Assembly (NCBI GenBank): GCA_023205875.1
Contig: CP060771.1
Coordinates: forward strand, 414,130 to 478,129
DNA from: Chloropicon primus
Taxonomy: Eukaryota > Chlorophyta > Chloropicophyceae > Chloropicales > Chloropicaceae
Direction of reading: 5' to 3'
Length of the DNA: 64,000 bases
Shown here: positions 3,858 through 64,000 of the stretch, in pieces
How the letters are laid out: each line of letters opens with the position of its first letter
Numbering within the stretch: the first letter of the stretch is position 1
Notes under the pieces: model-generated
What the model was told of the DNA's origin: nothing
What the model saw: the letters and a program-made list of their open reading frames with translations, nothing else
The model's database searches: none
Made by a program: the position numbers and the translations under genes

Positions 3858-3896
3858 TTGTTCGCAACAGCAAGAGCATCGCGTTTTGGAACACCA

Positions 3897-5339
3897 CCCC
3901 TTCTCCCTCCACTTTCGTTCGTTCGTTCGTTCGTCCCCTCGTCTGGTTTGTGTAAAAGTCAGTCATTGCTCTAGTGTTTATGACAGATAGTTTAGTCTTG
4001 TCCAGGGCTCGCGTTTCGTGGTCCTTGTCCTTGTCCTTGTCCTTGTCTCGTGATCCCCGCCGCCTGGCGTCCTCGGCCGGAGAAAAGCAAGGCGTGGAGG
4101 ATCCCTTTGAAGTCGAAGAACTTGGAAAAAAATGAGAGCAAGCGAGGCTCAACAGACTTGGTGGCGGAGCCTCGGAGGCTTGTGACAACCCACCGACCTC
4201 CTTAGAAGCACTTTCTGTGGACGACCGAGGGTCCCAGCTCGTCGTACTCGGATCTGGCGATCCACATGCCGGAGAAGGTGGAAAGGGAAGCCAAGATGGA
4301 TCCTCCAATCCAGACACTGTACTTACGCTCAGGTGGAGCCACGACCTTGATCTTCATGGAGGAAGGAGCCAAAGTGGTGATCTCCTTGGTCATCCTCTCG
4401 GCGATGTTAGGGAACATCGTGGTACCTCCGGAGAGACAGATGTTTCCGTACAAGTCCTTACGGATATCAACCTCGCACTTCATGATGGAGTTGTAGGTGA
4501 ACACGTGGATACCCTTGGCCTCCATTCCGATCAAGTGAGGCTGGAACAAGACCTCTGGGCACCTGAACCTCTCGTTTCCGACGGTGATGACCTGTCCGTC
4601 AGGAAGATCGAATGGCCTCTCGATGCTCGATCCGCTCAAGGAGGTCTGCATCTCCTGCTCGAAGTCCACGGCGACGTAGCCCAACCTCTCCTTGATGTCA
4701 CGGACAATCTCCCTCTCGGCGGAGGTGTTGAAGAAGTATCCACGCTCCGTCAAAATCTTCATCAAGTAGTCGGTCAAGTCCCTACCGGCAAGATCTAGAC
4801 GCAAGATAGCGTGTGGAAGGGCGTAACCCTCGTAGATAGGAACAGTGTGCGAGACACCGTCACCAGAGTCAAGAACAATACCGGTGGTACGTCCAGTGGC
4901 GTACAAGGAAAGGACGGCCTGGATAGAGATGTACATGGCAGGGGTGTTGAAGGTCTCGAACATGATCTCAGTCATCTTCTCTCTGTTGCTCTTTGGGTTC
5001 AAAGGAGCCTCAGTCAAAAGGACTGGGTGCTCGTCAGGGGTCACACGGAGCTCGTTGTAGAAGGTGTGGTGCCAGATCTTCTCCATATCGTCCCAGTTGC
5101 TAACAACACCGTGCTCGATAGGGTACTTCAAGGAAAGGATACCTCTCTTGGAGATGGCCTCGTCACCGACGTAGGTGTCCCTCTGTCCCATACCAACCAT
5201 AATACCCTGGTGTCTTGGTCTTCCCACAATGGAAGGGAAAACGGCACGAGGGGCATCGTCTCCGGCGAAACCGGCCTTCACCATTCCGGAACCATTGTCG
5301 CACACCAAGGCAGACACTTCTCCGTCTTCAGCCATCTGA
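3897..5339. repeat. Duplicated actin block, left copy
   Basis: About 1443 bp that recur at 6701-8143 in the same orientation, offset 2804 bp. The block holds the whole actin coding sequence, about 305 bp of 3' flank, and only four bases beyond the start codon. Translations of the two copies agree in several frames on both strands, so the nucleotide sequences are identical or nearly so. Upstream sequence differs between copies. Confidence 0.93.
4202..5335 (-). CDS. Actin, copy A
   Basis: Conventional actin of 377 aa, the cytoskeletal ATPase that polymerises into filaments. It opens [29 protein letters not shown] with the phosphate-1 loop, continues with the [16 protein letters not shown] stretch and the [22 protein letters not shown] phosphate-2 region, and ends SVVHRKCF, the standard conserved C-terminus. 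The coding sequence has no intron. The base before the ATG is the G of a CAG, and donor, branch site and AG-free tract upstream support a leader intron (separate entry). The encoded protein is identical to copy B, 2.8 kb away on the same strand. Such identity, including silent positions, implies a very recent duplication or ongoing gene conversion. Confidence 0.98.
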
Positions 5340-5695
5340 CAGGCACAGGCAAAGGCAGCAACAACGACAAGGGAAAGGGTCAGTGGGTATTACTTTGTCT
5401 TGAAGCGGCTTTGGTTTCTTTCCCTGTGCAGGAGAGAGATCGAGAGAGAAAGGGTCCAACTCTCCAGTGCCTCTGTGTTTCGGGCAAGCATTACGATGGC
5501 CAATTGCGAATGGCCAAGGGACCAAGAAGGCGTTCTTTCCTTTCCCTCTGAACAAGAAGTCTCTCTCTTTCTGGGTTTGTTTGTTTAGCTCTCGTCAAGC
5601 CTTCCCGCCAAGAAAAAAGCTTTCGTGCTAGCGGTGGGAGGGAAACATAACATAACGGCGGTGGAGTGCGGCGGTCACGAGGACGTTTGTCTTAC
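5336..5695 (-). other. Predicted 5'-leader intron of actin A
   Basis: Read on the minus strand, a GAG|GTAAGA donor lies at 5696/5695, an ACTGAC branch site at 5384-5379 and a GTCAG acceptor directly before the ATG. The roughly 40 nt between branch and acceptor are pyrimidine-rich and contain no other AG. Length would be 360 nt. The inference is strong because these signals match the coding introns elsewhere in the window; RNA evidence is not available here. Confidence 0.7.
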
Positions 5696-6625: not shown

Positions 6626-6700
6626 CGGCCCGTGAAAAGATCCAGCCTGTGAAAAGAAGGGCGCCGACACCCCCGCGGACATCGATCCGAGCGAGCGCAA

Positions 6701-8143
6701 CCCCTTCTCCCTCCACTTTCGTTCGTTCGTTCGTTCGTCCCCTCGTCTGGTTTGTGTAAAAGTCAGTCATTGCTCTAGTGTTTATGACAGATAGTTTAGT
6801 CTTGTCCAGGGCTCGCGTTTCGTGGTCCTTGTCCTTGTCCTTGTCCTTGTCTCGTGATCCCCGCCGCCTGGCGTCCTCGGCCGGAGAAAAGCAAGGCGTG
6901 GAGGATCCCTTTGAAGTCGAAGAACTTGGAAAAAAATGAGAGCAAGCGAGGCTCAACAGACTTGGTGGCGGAGCCTCGGAGGCTTGTGACAACCCACCGA
7001 CCTCCTTAGAAGCACTTTCTGTGGACGACCGAGGGTCCCAGCTCGTCGTACTCGGATCTGGCGATCCACATGCCGGAGAAGGTGGAAAGGGAAGCCAAGA
7101 TGGATCCTCCAATCCAGACACTGTACTTACGCTCAGGTGGAGCCACGACCTTGATCTTCATGGAGGAAGGAGCCAAAGTGGTGATCTCCTTGGTCATCCT
7201 CTCGGCGATGTTAGGGAACATCGTGGTACCTCCGGAGAGACAGATGTTTCCGTACAAGTCCTTACGGATATCAACCTCGCACTTCATGATGGAGTTGTAG
7301 GTGAACACGTGGATACCCTTGGCCTCCATTCCGATCAAGTGAGGCTGGAACAAGACCTCTGGGCACCTGAACCTCTCGTTTCCGACGGTGATGACCTGTC
7401 CGTCAGGAAGATCGAATGGCCTCTCGATGCTCGATCCGCTCAAGGAGGTCTGCATCTCCTGCTCGAAGTCCACGGCGACGTAGCCCAACCTCTCCTTGAT
7501 GTCACGGACAATCTCCCTCTCGGCGGAGGTGTTGAAGAAGTATCCACGCTCCGTCAAAATCTTCATCAAGTAGTCGGTCAAGTCCCTACCGGCAAGATCT
7601 AGACGCAAGATAGCGTGTGGAAGGGCGTAACCCTCGTAGATAGGAACAGTGTGCGAGACACCGTCACCAGAGTCAAGAACAATACCGGTGGTACGTCCAG
7701 TGGCGTACAAGGAAAGGACGGCCTGGATAGAGATGTACATGGCAGGGGTGTTGAAGGTCTCGAACATGATCTCAGTCATCTTCTCTCTGTTGCTCTTTGG
7801 GTTCAAAGGAGCCTCAGTCAAAAGGACTGGGTGCTCGTCAGGGGTCACACGGAGCTCGTTGTAGAAGGTGTGGTGCCAGATCTTCTCCATATCGTCCCAG
7901 TTGCTAACAACACCGTGCTCGATAGGGTACTTCAAGGAAAGGATACCTCTCTTGGAGATGGCCTCGTCACCGACGTAGGTGTCCCTCTGTCCCATACCAA
8001 CCATAATACCCTGGTGTCTTGGTCTTCCCACAATGGAAGGGAAAACGGCACGAGGGGCATCGTCTCCGGCGAAACCGGCCTTCACCATTCCGGAACCATT
8101 GTCGCACACCAAGGCAGACACTTCTCCGTCTTCAGCCATCTGA
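6701..8143. repeat. Duplicated actin block, right copy
   Basis: Second copy of the block at 3897-5339, offset 2804 bp, same orientation. The left boundary falls inside the 3' flank at CCCCTTCTCCC and the right boundary four bases past the start codon, inside the predicted leader intron. Similarity beyond that point is only patchy: the branch-site neighbourhood CCCACTGACCC is shared, but spacing and flanks differ. Confidence 0.93.
7006..8139 (-). CDS. Actin, copy B
   Basis: Second conventional actin, 377 aa, the same protein as copy A. It carries the same nucleotide-binding loops and the HRKCF terminus. The frame stays open about 45 codons upstream of the ATG, but that stretch has no ATG of its own and lies in what looks like a leader intron, so it is not an N-terminal extension. 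Its different upstream sequence from copy A could give the two genes different expression while keeping one protein. Which copy is ancestral cannot be read from the sequence. Confidence 0.97.
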
Positions 8144-8669
8144 GAGCCAGGCCAAAGGGAGGACCAAAACAAACACACACAACACACACAGGCACAGGCA
8201 GCAACAACAACAAGGGCAGAGGCAAGAAGAATGGCGCACGCACACGGACGCACCAGAGCAAGACGGGACGGCAAGTAGAAGGGTCAGTGGGTGTTGCTTG
8301 TTCAATCCAGGAGAGACTTTGGTTCTTGCTCATGAACCCAAAGAAAGAAAGAAAGAAAAAAAAAACGGCGGAAGCACAAGGAACACCAACAAAAGTCGGC
8401 ATGGCGGTCGCTCGATTGCACAGCCTCGTCCTCCGATCGCCCAATCCATTCGCATTCTCCTCCCGTGTCTCCGCGGAGAAAGATGAATGAACTTTGGTGG
8501 CGGCAGGAAGAGCTTTGTGTTCCCCCCCAAAAGATCGTATCTTTTCTTGTGGGGTTGCCGCGCTTCTCCCTTTGGTGCAAGCGTTCCCCGTGGTCCGATG
8601 AGGAAACCTTGCAAAGGTGTCCGGTCTCGCCGTCTTCGTCGTCTCTCTCTTGGTCCCTCTTGCTCTTAC
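8140..8669 (-). other. Predicted 5'-leader intron of actin B
   Basis: On the minus strand, AAAG|GTAAGAGC at 8670/8669 is the donor candidate, ACTGAC at 8288-8283 the branch site, and CTCTCAG directly before the ATG the acceptor. No other AG occurs in the ~140 nt between branch and acceptor, a long exclusion zone that is hard to get by chance. Predicted length is 530 nt, longer than in copy A, and the sequence is largely unrelated to it. Confidence 0.65.
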
Positions 8670-14106: not shown

Positions 14107-14976
14107 TCAAGTCTTTTTCTTCGGGTTGTTCTTCAGCAAATAAGCCGCAAGGAACTCCACTGGATCGTCTGGCCTCGTCTTCACCAGGTGCGTCAGCCCG
14201 TTCACCAGCAAAGTCACCACCGTGGTCTCCAAGTATTGACGGATGGGCAGGGACTGCAGCTGCAGTTGGTCGGAGATCTGCAAAGCAGCTGCCTCCGCCG
14301 AAGCTCCCTGGAGATGAAGGAAAACAGACAAAGTATACGACGAATCAAAGCAACAAAAATTTTCAGCAACCGAACAACCTTCACGCATACATCCCTTCTC
14401 GTTTCTCCGCAACACAGGCAAGGCTTGCTTGATCCCAACTCTCTCTCTCTCTCTCTTTCTGTGTTCCTCATCAGGAGCGGAAGGAAACCTCTCCTAATTC
14501 CTCGTCCAGGGCGAATGAACACACGCGTCAAGGTAAACCACGTCCGACACGACCGCGTCACTTTGGTTCCTGGTCTCCCTGCCGCATCCCCCAGGCGTTC
14601 CAAGGAATCGCAGAAGAACAAGCAAGCCAAGCAAGGGAAAGGAACCCAAGCAGTTCTTCTCTCCGCATCCTCGACGGAGGCAACGAAAGAGAAGGGAAGG
14701 GAAGGGGAGGGAAGAGCAAATCGGAGAGACACAACACACTTCTCTTGCTCGTCTTACCTCGTAGTTGGGGTCCTCGGTCGTGTTCGCCGCTTGGTTGTTC
14801 GTATTCGTATTCGTATTCATTGGCGGCGTTGTCGTCTGGTTCATGGTTTGTTCCACCTTTCCCCCAACCTCTTGCGACGGTCCACTACCGTTACCCTCCT
14901 CCGTCATGGCCACGTCCTTCACCTTGTCCTCGCCTTCCGTCCCTCCCCTCGTCACCGTCTCACCCTCCATCGTCAA
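14107..14976 (-). CDS. DPY30 homologue (two exons)
   Basis: Small dimerisation subunit of COMPASS/SET1-type H3K4 methyltransferase complexes; DPY30 domains also occur in axonemal proteins. Exon 1 is 14758-14976 (73 codons, low-complexity, ending DPNYE) and exon 2 is 14107-14307, separated by a 450-nt GTAAGA...CTCCAG intron; the product is 139 aa. The Dpy-30 motif is [20 protein letters not shown] followed by [20 protein letters not shown], with the R/K, P and LA-YLL positions of the family. The long asparagine/threonine-rich N-terminus is typical of the variable part. Convergent with a chromatin remodeler gene, though these are separate transcription units. Its start faces the CIAO1 leader repeat. 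Confidence 0.92.
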
Positions 14977-15045
14977 CGCCAGTCAACTCCTCCGCTCCTC
15001 CGCTGAGCAATCCATTCAAAACCAAAGCCAACGCCGGCGAACGAC

Positions 15046-15612
15046 GCCAAAGGCGAGGAAAGAGGTGAGTGCGGAGGCCAAGGGACGGCGGGAAACAAAG
15101 ACGCGATCGATTACGATCGATTACTCATCGCGTGCTCTTTCGAATGAACCGAACCTTGCTCGGTTTGGACGAGGGATTGAACGAGGAAAGGAATGATGGG
15201 ACTGACCTTTGTTTTGTGGATCTTCGCTGCCAAAGGCGAGGAAAGAGGTGAGTGCGGAGGCCAAGGGACGGCGGGAAACAAAGACGCGATCGATTACGAT
15301 CGATTACTCATCGCGTGCTCTTTCGAATGAACCGAACCTTGCTCGGTTTGGACGAGGGATTGAACGAGGAAAGGAATGATGGGACTGACCTTTGTTTTGT
15401 GGATCTTCGCTGCCAAAGGCGAGGAAAGAGGTGAGTGCGGAGGCCAAGGGACGGCGGGAAACAAAGGCGCGATCGATTACGATCGATTACTCATCGCGTG
15501 CTCTTTCGAATGAACCGCAGGTCGGAGGGTTCACTGGCTCATGAGTCCAGGAATGAGGTTGCTGACCTTTGCGTTTTGGTTTGTCCTCTCCTCCGCCGGC
15601 GACACCTCAAAG
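15046..15612 (+). repeat. 183 bp tandem repeat: triplicated leader intron plus 12-nt microexon
   Basis: Copies start at 15046, 15229 and 15412. The first two look identical; the third has one early difference and diverges after about 15516. Each copy reads as exon tail GCGAGGAAAGAG, donor GTGAGTGCGG (15065, 15248, 15431), branch site ACTGAC or GCTGAC (15201, 15384, 15561), an AG-free tract, and an acceptor CAAAG (ending 15235, 15418, 15612). This predicts two introns of 171 nt and one of 182 nt, separated by two identical 12-nt microexons. The repeat lies in the 5' leader of CIAO1. Confidence 0.65.
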
Positions 15613-15614
15613 GC

Positions 15615-15629
15615 ATGGCTAGGGATTGA
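15615..15629 (+). other. Short upstream ORF in the CIAO1 leader
   Basis: ATG GCT AGG GAT TGA lies three bases after the last predicted leader acceptor and about 115 bases before the CIAO1 ATG. If the leader is spliced as predicted this four-codon frame is the first AUG of the mRNA. Translation of it is inferred only. Confidence 0.35.
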
Positions 15630-15744
15630 TATACTTGAGGTTGGTTGATAAGGGAGGGTCTCGTTCTGGATCATCTGGCTGGCTGCGCTCGTCCCGCACC
15701 AGTCGCAGCTTTCGTGCGCGTGTTTGTTTTGGTGTGAAGATAAG

Positions 15745-16812
15745 ATGTGTCGAGGAAAAGGAGTCTCGTTGGAAGGACACAAGGACCGCGTTTGGCACGT
15801 GTGTTGGAATAACCAAGGGGAGACGCTAGCAAGCTGCGGAGGTGACAAAACGGTGAGGTTGTGGCACCGAACGAAGGAGGACTCGAGGGAGGAGGACTCT
15901 GCTTCCACTCTTGGCTTCTCCCCGATGGAGACCTTGGAAAAGACGCACACGAAGACCATCAGGAGGTGCGAGTTCTCCAAGTGCGACACCATGATCGCAA
16001 CGGTGAGCTTTGACGCGACCACGTGCATCTGGGACAAGGGCGGCCAGGCCAGCGCCACCGATGCGGAGTGGGACCTCGTGGTGACGCTCGAAGGCCACGA
16101 GAGCGAGATAAAGGACGTTGCCTGGTCCCCGGACGGGGAGCTCCTGGCCACCTGCGGGAGGGACAAGAGCATCTGGATCTGGCTCAAGGAGATCGACGAC
16201 CAATTTGAGTGCCTGGACGTCTTGCAGGGGCACACGCAGGACGTCAAGTCCTTGCGCTGGGTGCCGAAGACGCGGGCCCTCGTGTCCGCCTCGTACGACA
16301 ACACGATCAAGATCTGGAACGAGTGCAACGACGAGTGGCTCTGCACGCAGACCCTGGACACGGCCTACCAGGGCCACGAGAGCACGGTGTGGAACCTGGC
16401 TTGCAACCAGGAGGGGTCCAAGCTCCTTTCCTGCGACGACACCGGAATGATCCTGCTTTGGAGCATCGAGACCTGCGACTCGTCGGTCGAGTTGAAGCTG
16501 GTGTCGAGGAACAAGGTGCCCAGCGACTTCAGCATCTACTCCATTGATTGGGCTTCCAGCGGGCTCATCGCGATAGGCTCCGCGGACAACTCGATCTCGC
16601 TTCTGCAGCTGGAGAGGAGCGAGGGCGGCGCCGCCGGAGAGGAGGCCGACAAGAGGGGGAACGAGATCCTGAAGCTCGTCAAGGAAGTCAAGCAGGCCCA
16701 CGCCGGAGACGTGAACTGCGTCAGGTTTAACCCCAAGGACCCCAACCTGCTCGCCAGCGCGGGGGACGACGAGCTTGTCAAGCTCTGGCGCATCAACGAC
16801 ATTCTTTCTTGA
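15745..16812 (+). CDS. CIAO1/Cia1, WD40 cytosolic Fe-S assembly targeting factor
   Basis: Seven-bladed WD40 propeller of 355 aa that docks client apoproteins to the CIA targeting complex with CIA2 and MMS19 for cytosolic and nuclear Fe-S insertion. The family hallmarks are in order: ASCGGDKTVRLW, SFDATTCIW, LEGHESEIKDVAWSPDGELLATCGRDKSIWIW, HTQDVKSLRW, SASYDNTIKIW, GHESTVWNLA, and HAGDVNCVRFNPKDPNLLASAGDDELVKLW. Length matches the usual 330-350. The ATG at 15745 opens directly into the first blade (GVSLEGHKDRVWHVCW). An earlier in-frame codon is only TTG. The coding part has no intron, but a triplicated leader intron is predicted upstream. A GA microsatellite follows the stop. Confidence 0.96.
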   Translation: MCRGKGVSLEGHKDRVWHVCWNNQGETLASCGGDKTVRLWHRTKEDSREEDSASTLGFSPMETLEKTHTKTIRRCEFSKCDTMIATVSFDATTCIWDKGGQASATDAEWDLVVTLEGHESEIKDVAWSPDGELLATCGRDKSIWIWLKEIDDQFECLDVLQGHTQDVKSLRWVPKTRALVSASYDNTIKIWNECNDEWLCTQTLDTAYQGHESTVWNLACNQEGSKLLSCDDTGMILLWSIETCDSSVELKLVSRNKVPSDFSIYSIDWASSGLIAIGSADNSISLLQLERSEGGAAGEEADKRGNEILKLVKEVKQAHAGDVNCVRFNPKDPNLLASAGDDELVKLWRINDILS

Positions 16813-19418: not shown

Positions 19419-19778
19419 CTAAATCCATTCGTCATTGGGTGCGGTCAAGTCGCTGTCCGCGCCACCGGTGTTCACCACACCCCTGGGCTCGACAAGCAAA
19501 ACCTTGCACTCGGCTTCAGCCCACGGCTTGTGCCTCACTCCCTTGGGTACCACGTACATCTCCCCCTCCTTGAGCTCTACTGAGCCGTCCTCCAAGTCTA
19601 TCCTCATGCTGCCCTCGATCACCAGGAACACCTCGTCCGTGTCCGGATGGTCGTGCCACACGAACTCGCCCTGGATCTTCACCACCTTGAACTGATAGCC
19701 ATTCATCTCCGCGATAACCTTAGGCGTCCAATGTTCCTTGAACTTGGAAAGCTTCTCCCTCAAGTTGACCTTCGACAT
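19419..19778 (-). CDS. Small cupin-fold protein
   Basis: Single-domain cupin of 119 aa. Metal-ligand positions are visible: His42, His44 and Glu49 in WHDHPDTDEVFLVIEG (cupin motif 1), and His83 in PKGVRHKP (motif 2). The segment MRIDLEDGSVELKEGEMYVVP fits the inter-motif strands. Related small cupins, often labelled mannose-6-phosphate isomerase-like, are widespread in bacteria and algae, and their substrates are mostly unknown. No targeting peptide or intron is seen. It converges on the hydrolase gene with about 50 bp between stops. Its upstream side carries a 178 bp tandem duplication. Confidence 0.9.
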   Translation of the reverse strand: MSKVNLREKLSKFKEHWTPKVIAEMNGYQFKVVKIQGEFVWHDHPDTDEVFLVIEGSMRIDLEDGSVELKEGEMYVVPKGVRHKPWAEAECKVLLVEPRGVVNTGGADSDLTAPNDEWI

Positions 19779-19815
19779 CTTCCTTCACTTGCCTTTCAAT
19801 CCAAGTTATCACTTA

Positions 19816-20160
19816 GTTGTCCTTCCTGCAACCGTTACCGACCCCTTAGGACGCCAATAGAGTCGACCAAGGTACCAATGGAATGCCCGTGAGACGCACT
19901 AGTGTCTTGTGAAGTCGCCTATCCTTCTGTTGCCCTCCCTCGTCGTCAATGTCCGCCTTCGTCTTGGTTTGTCCTCCCTTGTCCTCCACCGAAGTTGTCC
20001 TTCCTGCAACCGTTACCGACCCCTTAGGACGCCAATAGAGTCGACCAAGGTACCAATGGAATGCCCGTGAGACGCACTAGTGTCTTGTGAAGTCACCTAT
20101 CCTTCTGTTGCCCTCCCTCGTCGTCAATGTCCGCCTTCGTCTTGGTTTGTCCTCCCTTGT
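19816..20160. repeat. 178 bp tandem duplication
   Basis: Two near-identical copies begin GTTGTCCTTCCTGCAACC at 19816 and 19994 and run through GGACGCCAATAGAGTCGACC, GAGACGCACTAGTGTCTTG and TTTGTCCTCCCTTGT. The visible differences include GTCGCC versus GTCACC. CACTAGTG is palindromic. It lies upstream of the cupin gene and of the V-ATPase gene. No donor/branch/acceptor set is seen, so this is not an intron duplication. Confidence 0.92.
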
Positions 20161-23522: not shown

Positions 23523-23709
23523 CGTGTCCTCCTCGTCGTCGTCCTCGTCCTCGTCGTCCTCGTCCTCGTCGTCGTCGTCGCTCGCGTCGCCTCCGTCTGT
23601 TTCTGTTTTGGGATTTTTTGAATGCAGAGAGCAGCTCAGGAGGAGAGGGGGATGGGGGTGATGGTGACGAGGGTGATGATGACGAGGAGGGGAGGAAGAG
23701 AAGAAGGGG

Positions 23710-24015
23710 CATTGGTAAGGATGGATAGATCGTCTCTTGCTCTTTCCAAGGAGCCCTCACTTGCTCACTTTTGCTCCCTAGAGAGAGAGGACACGATTGG
23801 GATGAAGTGGAATGATGATGGTGATGGTGGAGGAGCAAGGGGGAGAGGGAGGTGTGTGTGTGTGTGTGTGTGTGGCGTTGGTAAGGATGGATAGATCGTC
23901 TCTTGCTCTTTCCAAGGAGCCCTCACTTGCTCACTTTTGCTCCCTAGAGAGAGAGGACACGATTGGGATGAAGTGGAATGATGATGGTGATGGTGGAGGA
24001 GCAGGGGGGAGAGGG

Positions 24016-24046
<31 letters not shown>

Positions 24047-24110
24047 GCATTGGTAAGGATGGATAGATCGTCTCTTGCTCTTTCCAAGGAGCCCTGACTT
24101 TGCTGCTCAC
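23710..24110 (-). repeat. Inverted copy of the 160 bp minisatellite
   Basis: About two and a third units of the same repeat found at 1.2-2.4 kb, here on the opposite strand. GGTAAGGATGGATAGATCGTC recurs at about 23714, 23880 and 24052. Each unit keeps the CCATCACCATCATC-type block and the CA tract, here as GT. It lies upstream of Rpn11 and downstream of COQ3. The third unit degenerates after AAGGAGCCCT. Confidence 0.93.
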
Positions 24111-32384: not shown

Positions 32385-32635
32385 CTGCCATGCCATGACA
32401 AGCGACGGAGACAACCGAGCAAAGGTCAGTACGCAAGGAGCAAGCGGACAAGGAGGAGACAAGAGAAGAGAAGAGAAGAGAGAGAAGAGAAGAGGACAAA
32501 CCATTCTCTTTTTGCTCTTTTCTTTTCGTGGGACGGAGAGAGAGAGAGACAGAAGAGACAGGACACGAAAGAAAAAAACAGACGGAGGGGCAAAACATGA
32601 ACACCCCGCCTCCCTCCCTCCTCGTCGTCCTGTCT

Positions 32636-32672
<37 letters not shown>

Positions 32673-32676
32673 TTAC
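32385..32676 (-). other. Candidate 5'-leader intron of Rab1
   Basis: On the minus strand, GAAG|GTAAGC at 32677/32676 is a good donor, ACTGAC lies at 32430-32425, and the first AG after it is the TGGCAG acceptor at 32386-32385, about 40 nt on. The intron would be 292 nt and leave about 220 nt of leader before the ATG. Confidence 0.42.
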
Positions 32677-61483: not shown

Positions 61484-61609
61484 GGGGGTGTAGCTCATTT
61501 GGCAGAGCGTTCGCTTTGCATTAACATGGGGTTTACTACAAGGACTCGACATCTCTGGAGCCCCCACGAAATCTGCGAAAGGCAGGGGGTTCGATTCCCT
61601 CCACCTCCA
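61484..61609 (+). tRNA. tRNA-Ala (UGC) with 53-nt intron
   Basis: Acceptor GGGGGTG (61484-61490) pairs with CACCTCC (61602-61608, one G-U), discriminator A at 61609. D stem GCTC/GAGC; anticodon stem TTCGC (61510-61514) with GCGAA (61575-61579); loop TTTGCA plus T, anticodon TGC at 61517-61519. The intron is 61521-61573, at the canonical position after base 37. T arm GGGGG TTCGATT CCCTC. A T8 run at 61611 is a Pol III terminator. Internal A box (TAGCTCATTTGGCAGAGC) and B box (GGTTCGATTCC) are present. Confidence 0.95.
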
Positions 61610-63236: not shown

Positions 63237-64000
63237 TTAGGTTTAGGATTGTAGGTTTGTTAGGTTTAGGTTTTAGGTTTAGGTTTAGGTTTTAGGGTTT
63301 TAGGTTTTAGGTTTTAGGTTTTAGGTTTTGGTTTAGGTTTAGGGTTTAGGTTTAGGTTTTAGGTTTTAGGTTTTAGGTTTTAGGTTTTAGGTTTAGGTTT
63401 TAGGTTTTAGGTTTTAGGTTTTAGGTTTTAGGTTTTAGGTTTTAGGTTTTAGGTTTTAGGTTTTAGGTTTTAGGTTTTAGGTTTTAGGTTTTAGGTTTTA
63501 GGTTTTAGGTTTTAGGTTTTAGGTTTTAGGTTTTAGGTTTTAGGTTTTAGGTTTTAGGTTTTAGGTTTTAGGTTTTAGGTTTTAGGTTTTTAGGTTTTAG
63601 GTTTTAGGTTTTAGGTTTTAGGTTTTAGGTTTTAGGTTTTAGGTTTTAGGTTTTAGGTTTTAGGTTTTAGGTTTTAGGTTTTAGGTTTTAGGTTTTAGGT
63701 TTTAGGTTTTAGGTTTTAGGTTTTAGGTTTTAGGTTTTAGGTTTTAGGTTTTAGGTTTTAGGTTTTAGGTTTTAGGTTTTAGGTTTTAGGTTTAGGTTTT
63801 AGGTTTTAGGTTTTAGGTTTTAGGTTTTAGGTTTTAGGTTTTAGGTTTTAGGTTTTAGGTTTTAGGTTTTAGGTTTTAGGTTTAGGTTTTAGGTTTTAGG
63901 TTTTAGGTTTTAGGTTTTAGGTTTAGGTTTTAGGTTTTAGGTTTTAGGTTTTAGGTTTTAGGTTTTAGGTTTTAGGTTTTAGGTTTTAGGTTTTAGGTTT
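63237..64000 (+). repeat. Telomere repeat tract, TTTTAGG
   Basis: Nearly homogeneous heptamer TTTTAGG to the window edge, with occasional TTTAGG, one TTTTAGGG and a degenerate proximal edge (63237-63340). The G-rich strand runs 5' to 3' toward the right end, the correct polarity for a right chromosome end. Visible length is about 760 bp and it is truncated by the window. Confidence 0.95.

Follow-up and report, generated by a model that had tools for sequence, protein, structure and literature searches.

A predicted leader intron of a CIAO1-like gene in Chloropicon primus and its possible multiplication by tandem duplication with template-switch filler

Introduction

Growth in intron number has been argued from few young cases with known sources (passages of PMC3443670 and PMC4974935), and the multiplication of an existing intron is kept apart from the creation of a new one in the latter (PMC4974935). 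In Arabidopsis TOUCH3 (Knowles and McLysaght 2006, as related in PMC4974935) a duplication bears a whole intron with flanking exon and each copy adds an intron; in potato RdRp, in the account given by PMC4974935, a duplication across an intron-exon boundary supplies the branch site, tract and acceptor of a new intron that has a cryptic donor. The neointrons found at double-strand breaks in Daphnia show direct repeats of 4-12 bp of terminal exon sequence, as well as short internal repeats (passages of PMC4202315). Here we analyse a 64,000-nt window (G000:C18:414130-478129) of the minute marine alga Chloropicon primus, whose genome comprises 17,584,162 bases in 20 contigs, and within it a 183-bp tandem array that lies upstream of a gene for a CIAO1-like protein and whose units resemble introns preceded by 12 nt of exon.

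The array departs from each of these systems. Like TOUCH3 it multiplies a whole intron with exon sequence, but it is located in a predicted 5' untranslated region, its exon part is 12 nt and two of its three copies have another 3' half, parts of which match other chromosomes. Whereas the potato duplication made a new intron, this one duplicates a donor together with the 12-nt exon, and the acceptor half is apparently filler. It may share with the Daphnia neointrons a short internal repeat (the 10-nt tandem CGATCGATTA inside the unit, spotted by eye), but its flanking repeat is imperfect, measures 21-23 bp and stops 10 nt short of the donor, and copies of the intron stand in tandem. A fourth comparison is with tandem duplications that carry templated insertions, formed by theta-mediated end joining or break-induced replication, whose junctions hold short patches from distant loci and short microhomology. 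The papers retrieved on these deal mainly with worm repair mutants and cancer genomes, whereas the CIAO1 filler would act as the 3' end of an intron, and in an alga. On leader introns duplicated together with microexons, as on the leaders of Chloropicon, our literature search yielded no usable paper.

Results

The array occupies positions 15046-15517, where Tandem Repeats Finder (TRF) reported a period of 183, 2.6 copies and 99% identity. Copies 1 and 2 (15053-15235 and 15236-15418) were identical at 183/183 positions, in agreement with the first-pass annotation, which had described a 183-bp repeat with two apparently identical copies. Copy 3, which begins at 15419, matched the others at 98 of its first 99 positions and then lost in-register similarity; the break is abrupt and falls at unit position 99/100. 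Every copy displays a donor GAG/GTGAGTGCGG, the motif CTGAC, an AG-free tract and an acceptor CAAAG/GC (slashes mark the predicted splice sites). A whole predicted intron and exon sequence is repeated head to tail in copies 1 and 2, and copy 3 continues the repeat over its first 99 positions; the duplicated segment contains a complete predicted intron, and its acceptor CAAAG/GC and donor GAG/GT differ in sequence. The array had been called triplicated, which holds for the donor half but not for the 3' half, since the latter is different in intron 3. No Rfam match was found in the array up to E 5, and the RNA fold of the unit was not better than those of shuffled sequences (z -0.12).

To compare these units with other introns of the genome, we trained a simple gene finder on 199,533 bases of it, a non-random sample because some of the loci had been chosen for their repeats. 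As reference we took 29 first-pass coding introns, picked from 50 candidates by donor shape and length. Repeated retraining made the finder drift (by the third round it made 267 calls, including ~160-bp repeat units at 1221-2399 as "introns"), and therefore the first-pass set was used alone. A Pfam check of six genes with seven of the reference junctions placed four inside the matched domain (ribosomal S19e, FeS_assembly_P, the first of two in a glycosyltransferase, and IGPD) and three outside it (GINS Sld5, the second in the glycosyltransferase, and Dus). CTGAC was the top 5-mer ~15-60 nt from the 3' end of the reference introns (15/29), and their last three bases were CAG in 19, AAG in 6, TAG in 3 and GAG in 1.

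Measured in this way, the leader donor scored 10.64 bits, a value reached by 60 of the 21,394 GT sites, including the three leader copies, and lying mid-range among the 29 introns; the leader acceptors all fall inside the range of the reference set, that of copy 3 at its low side. A donor of at least this score followed by CTGAC and by an acceptor at the first AG was found at 18 donors of the sample (10 of the 29, the 3 of the leader and 5 others) and 2-11 times, with a mean of 5.0, in 20 shuffles, counts that are somewhat flattering because the threshold was the leader's own donor score. The ten-base word GTGAGTGCGG was rejected as a special donor word, since it occurs at 37 sites of the genome (the three leader copies included) against 48 for its reversed control; the support for introns comes from the combination of signals. 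A predicted coding intron of 167 nt at another sampled locus (L044) combines the donor GTGAGTGCG with CTGAC and AAAG. The mean intron size in the C. primus genome is given as 152 bp (PMC12301720, in part). Lastly, among the nine distinct arrays with a period of 60-400 in the sample (eleven TRF rows), only the leader array has donors of at least 7 bits. Judged against the 29 predicted introns, the donor, branch site and acceptor of the array resemble those of the genome's coding introns (U2 type), with a weak third acceptor. The earlier proposal that the repeat unit coincides with a splicing unit, with predicted introns of 171, 171 and 182 nt, is in line with these signals on the + strand, and we consider it probable that the units are spliced as leader introns.

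We then searched the genome for relatives of the 3' half that copies 1 and 2 share. Unit positions 134-183 were identical (50/50) to a block of contig 14 that starts 8 nt past the stop of a protein kinase open reading frame (ORF; Pkinase, E 3.4e-64). The end of the match coincides exactly with both the predicted acceptor and the boundary of the unit. Within the remaining 34 nt of the 3' half, a stretch of 19 nt was found intact (19/19) on contig 8; for the whole 34 nt, base composition predicts 0.0024 exact matches of at least 19 nt. A 23-base word from the other part of the 34-nt stretch had no other match in the genome at up to 3 mismatches. Two control 20-mers of the array had no match outside it at 0 or 1 mismatch, and one of them had three at 2 mismatches. 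An attempt to gauge how often 19-mers recur between sampled loci (1/391 stretches) was uninformative, because the sole recurring stretch was the contig 14 match itself. The copy-3 side (15505-15760) returned only itself in the own-genome search at E up to 10; such searches score the best candidates only and may therefore miss a match that exists. Finally, the 7-nt sequence GCCAAAG is common to the left end of the array and to the end of copies 1 and 2.

The flanking genes were identified by similarity. On the - strand, the spliced translation of the divergent gene matches Pfam Dpy-30 (E 5.9e-16), with the exon junction outside the matched motif. Downstream of the array, the protein matches PDB chain 3fm0, "Protein CIAO1" (E 6.2e-70), on which match the orthologue call rests, and a four-codon upstream ORF (uORF) precedes it; the placing of the array before CIAO1 and of this uORF behind the array was correct in the first-pass annotation. 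The DPY-30 and CIAO1 start codons lie 774 bp apart. All nine upstream ATGs that precede the uORF are within the predicted introns, and none is in a predicted exon. The coordinates are collected in Table 1.

Table 1. Features of the predicted CIAO1 leader and its surroundings (window positions).
Feature	Positions	Strand	Details
DPY-30-like divergent gene	14107..14970	-	exons 14970-14758 and 14307-14107; predicted intron 450 nt
CIAO1 candidate leader exon 1 (upper limit)	14971..15064	+	94 nt between DPY-30 ATG and first donor
Imperfect direct repeat, left copy	15032..15054	+	19/23 columns same as 15594-15614
Predicted intron 1, 171 nt	15065..15235	+	donor 10.6 bits, CTGAC, branch A 15205, acceptor 6.5 bits
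19 nt identical to contig 8:190335-190353	15155..15173 (copy 2: 15338-15356)	+	19/19
50 nt identical to contig 14:75438-75487	15186..15235 (copy 2: 15369-15418)	+	own-genome search
Predicted 12-nt exon GCGAGGAAAGAG	15236..15247	+	sequence
Predicted intron 2, 171 nt	15248..15418	+	same sequence as intron 1; branch A 15388
Predicted 12-nt exon GCGAGGAAAGAG	15419..15430	+	sequence
Predicted intron 3, 182 nt	15431..15612	+	distinct 3' half; branch A 15565; acceptor weak, 2.05 bits
Imperfect direct repeat, right copy	15594..15614	+	straddles third acceptor
uORF MARD, four codons	15615..15629	+	
CIAO1-like WD40 protein, 355 aa	15745..16812	+	

Discussion

The locus had been interpreted as an intron gain by tandem duplication caught soon after the event. 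The identity of copies 1 and 2 agrees with this, but a whole pre-existing intron appears to have been multiplied, with a 3' half that in part matches other loci. Since the entire intron-like unit was multiplied, whatever its splicing, "intron gain" here means multiplication; most likely the leader intron already existed and was multiplied in tandem rather than made de novo. A plain duplication does not account for the array, given that the 3' half common to copies 1 and 2 is absent from copy 3 and partly identical to contigs 14 and 8. The break at position 99/100 and the two matches are what a template-switching duplication with patches, as we propose, would leave, and the identities with contigs 14 and 8 suggest that the duplication was patched in that way, though the 50 nt may instead have moved from the intron to contig 14. 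We hold the full account, in which the CIAO1 leader intron was multiplied to three by tandem duplication with template-switch filler and is spliced out, with about as much confidence as doubt.

In this scheme the ancestral CIAO1 leader would have had one intron, of the copy-3 type. Template-switching repair would have duplicated the last 12 nt of exon 1 and the donor half of the intron, and the gap would have been filled from other chromosomes, with 19 nt like contig 8 and 50 nt like the contig 14 sequence behind the kinase stop, before re-entry at the microhomology GCCAAAG directly upstream of the 12-nt segment. The filler would by chance have supplied a branch site along with a tract that is free of AG up to a terminal CAAAG, and because it holds these elements the duplicate would have been a complete intron. 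Unequal exchange within the shared donor halves could then have copied the unit again, giving the order A-A-B, and with all copies spliced out the leader would carry three GCGAGGAAAGAG segments and one short uORF. The repeat, the sequence identities and the match to splice signals are observed; transcription through the array, the splicing, and the order and direction of the events are parts of this scheme that we infer.

Several observations weigh against this account, in addition to the choice of threshold mentioned above. It requires that a random piece of DNA happen to contain both a branch site and an acceptor. Around the branch site, copies 1 and 3 have similar 3' halves, with a local score of 29 that was reached by 1 of 5000 shuffles, and by 6 of 5000 under a second scoring scheme, and this likeness would suit shared descent better than filler. 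The reference introns are themselves predictions and, once the curated introns and the leader copies are set aside, the 5 signature matches left in the sample equal the shuffle mean. Only 5 of the 29 reference introns have an acceptor weaker than the third one of the leader, and stronger AGs are found at 15652, 15702 and 15739. Moreover, the 94 nt between the neighbour's ATG and the first donor are tight for a promoter and exon 1, and 23 predicted divergent ATG pairs of the sample, the DPY-30/CIAO1 pair excluded, are 208-2119 bp apart with a median of 796.

The scant room upstream of the first donor would fit the main rival, in which the array is a repeat in a bidirectional DPY-30/CIAO1 promoter, CIAO1 transcription starts downstream, nothing is spliced and the signals arose by chance or remain from an older leader. 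The genome has other arrays, with periods of 147-197 bp, that lack such donors, and one of them (L007, 6349-7229, just left of the window) directly precedes a predicted start codon at 7265; it repeats a 147-bp unit about six times and has no donors of at least 7 bits. The fact that the other eight distinct sampled arrays all lack donors of that strength also speaks against a mere promoter repeat, as does the fact that, with either type of 3' half, a donor, a branch motif and an acceptor coincide on the sense strand; shuffles of 14971-15744 showed the signature in 11 of 2000 cases, a figure that the choice of threshold flatters as well. On balance we regard the promoter reading as unlikely, while ranking it first among the alternatives.

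Next, and also unlikely, is the possibility that all three copies descend by duplication from a single native intron between direct repeats, with 5' halves homogenized by gene conversion, 3' halves diverged, and the contig 14 block copied from CIAO1. The likeness of the 3' halves and the flanking direct repeat, whose right copy straddles an acceptor, would both be explained. That repeat was noticed post hoc, and its local score was reached by 27 and 31 of 5000 shuffles under two scorings (6 of 5000 in an end-anchored test, likewise post hoc); it is suggestive and, apart from this possibility, may record an older event. Conversion would nevertheless have to stop sharply at unit position 99, and chance would have to explain both the 19-nt match on contig 8 and the fact that the contig 14 match stops exactly at the unit boundary. 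The score of 29 is also unexceptional: copy 1 scores 31 with one unrelated coding intron of the reference set, and 28 of the 406 pairs among the 29 introns reach at least 29, many of them probably through simple repeats. The likeness may therefore reflect shared function, copy 1 being more similar to an unrelated intron. Among 6575 genome 95-mers, 10 reached 29 with copy 1, of which 4 correspond to the contig 14 block and 6 to three places.

For the contig 14 block alone, it is conceivable, if improbable, that the 50 nt are the reverse-transcribed tail of an excised CIAO1 leader intron, ending exactly at the predicted 3' splice site, that was inserted just after the kinase stop. If so, the genome would record the excision and the 3' end of the intron, and intron RNA could return to nuclear DNA.

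We find it very improbable that the introns belong instead to the leader of the divergent DPY-30 gene. The - strand offers CTCAC motifs and the donors GTCAGTC/GTCAGCA, which score 8.4-9.8 bits, and its acceptors at 15003 and 15591 score 4.6 and 6.4 bits, but it has no acceptor of at least 4 bits within 15046-15517 and no CTGAC in the region, which means that the repeat units are not splicing units of that strand; that strand could accommodate no more than a single intron, with its end at 15003. An assembly artefact in the copy number deserves still less credence: identical tandem copies are difficult to count, but the published assembly combined nanopore and Illumina reads and was manually curated (PMC12301720, in part), and at least two units are real because copy 3 differs. 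Introner-type mobile introns, which are said to occur in green algae (passages of PMC9860276) and would fit the intron-sized, near-identical units, were rejected as the least probable reading, since an own-genome search with the unit and both 3' halves, which scored the best candidates, found no dispersed copies but only the array and the 50 nt on contig 14.

To return to multiplication with filler, if the array is spliced, the CIAO1 mRNA would contain three GCGAGGAAAGAG segments and skipping would alter the leader by 12 nt only, and it is a fair inference that leader length would change in 12-nt steps. The 12-nt exon is purine-rich, which could favour its inclusion. Intron retention, on the other hand, would expose up to nine extra upstream ATGs, and copy number in the leader might in this way tune CIAO1, an iron-sulphur assembly factor. 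If the acceptor half of copy 1 is foreign, repair filler would have provided a working acceptor that was multiplied afterwards. The junctions can still be read because the copies are young, the site is without coding constraint, and another published strain and a sister species (PMC12301720, in part) would permit a direct check of the order and direction of the events.

Other features of the window

On the - strand, positions 32385-32676 bear an intron-like signature with donor CTGACCTTTG (14.0 bits); a predicted ATG follows after ~220 nt, and the signature may mark a further leader intron. A ~160-bp tandem unit is present at 1221-2399 and 23708-24100 in opposite orientations, with no donors of at least 7 bits; at least 77 matches to it occur genome-wide, with contigs 19 and 20 holding many of them, and the matches often cover only about query bases 12-57 (a 45-nt core). 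A 178-bp duplication (99%) at 19815-20160 lies just upstream of a - strand cupin-domain gene (ATG at 19778) and has a relative on contig 13 (117748-117913, 87%), while contigs 10 and 16 carry shorter relatives. The segments 3896-5364 and 6700-8167 are copies of each other (99.5% identity over 1.47 kb), and a coding sequence of 1134 nt is predicted on the - strand of each. At 61484-61609, 126 nt match a tRNA model of 71 positions and, because of this length, probably represent an intron-bearing tRNA. Finally, positions 63237-64000 consist of telomere-like repeats, mostly TTTTAGG, and the end of the window is the end of the contig.
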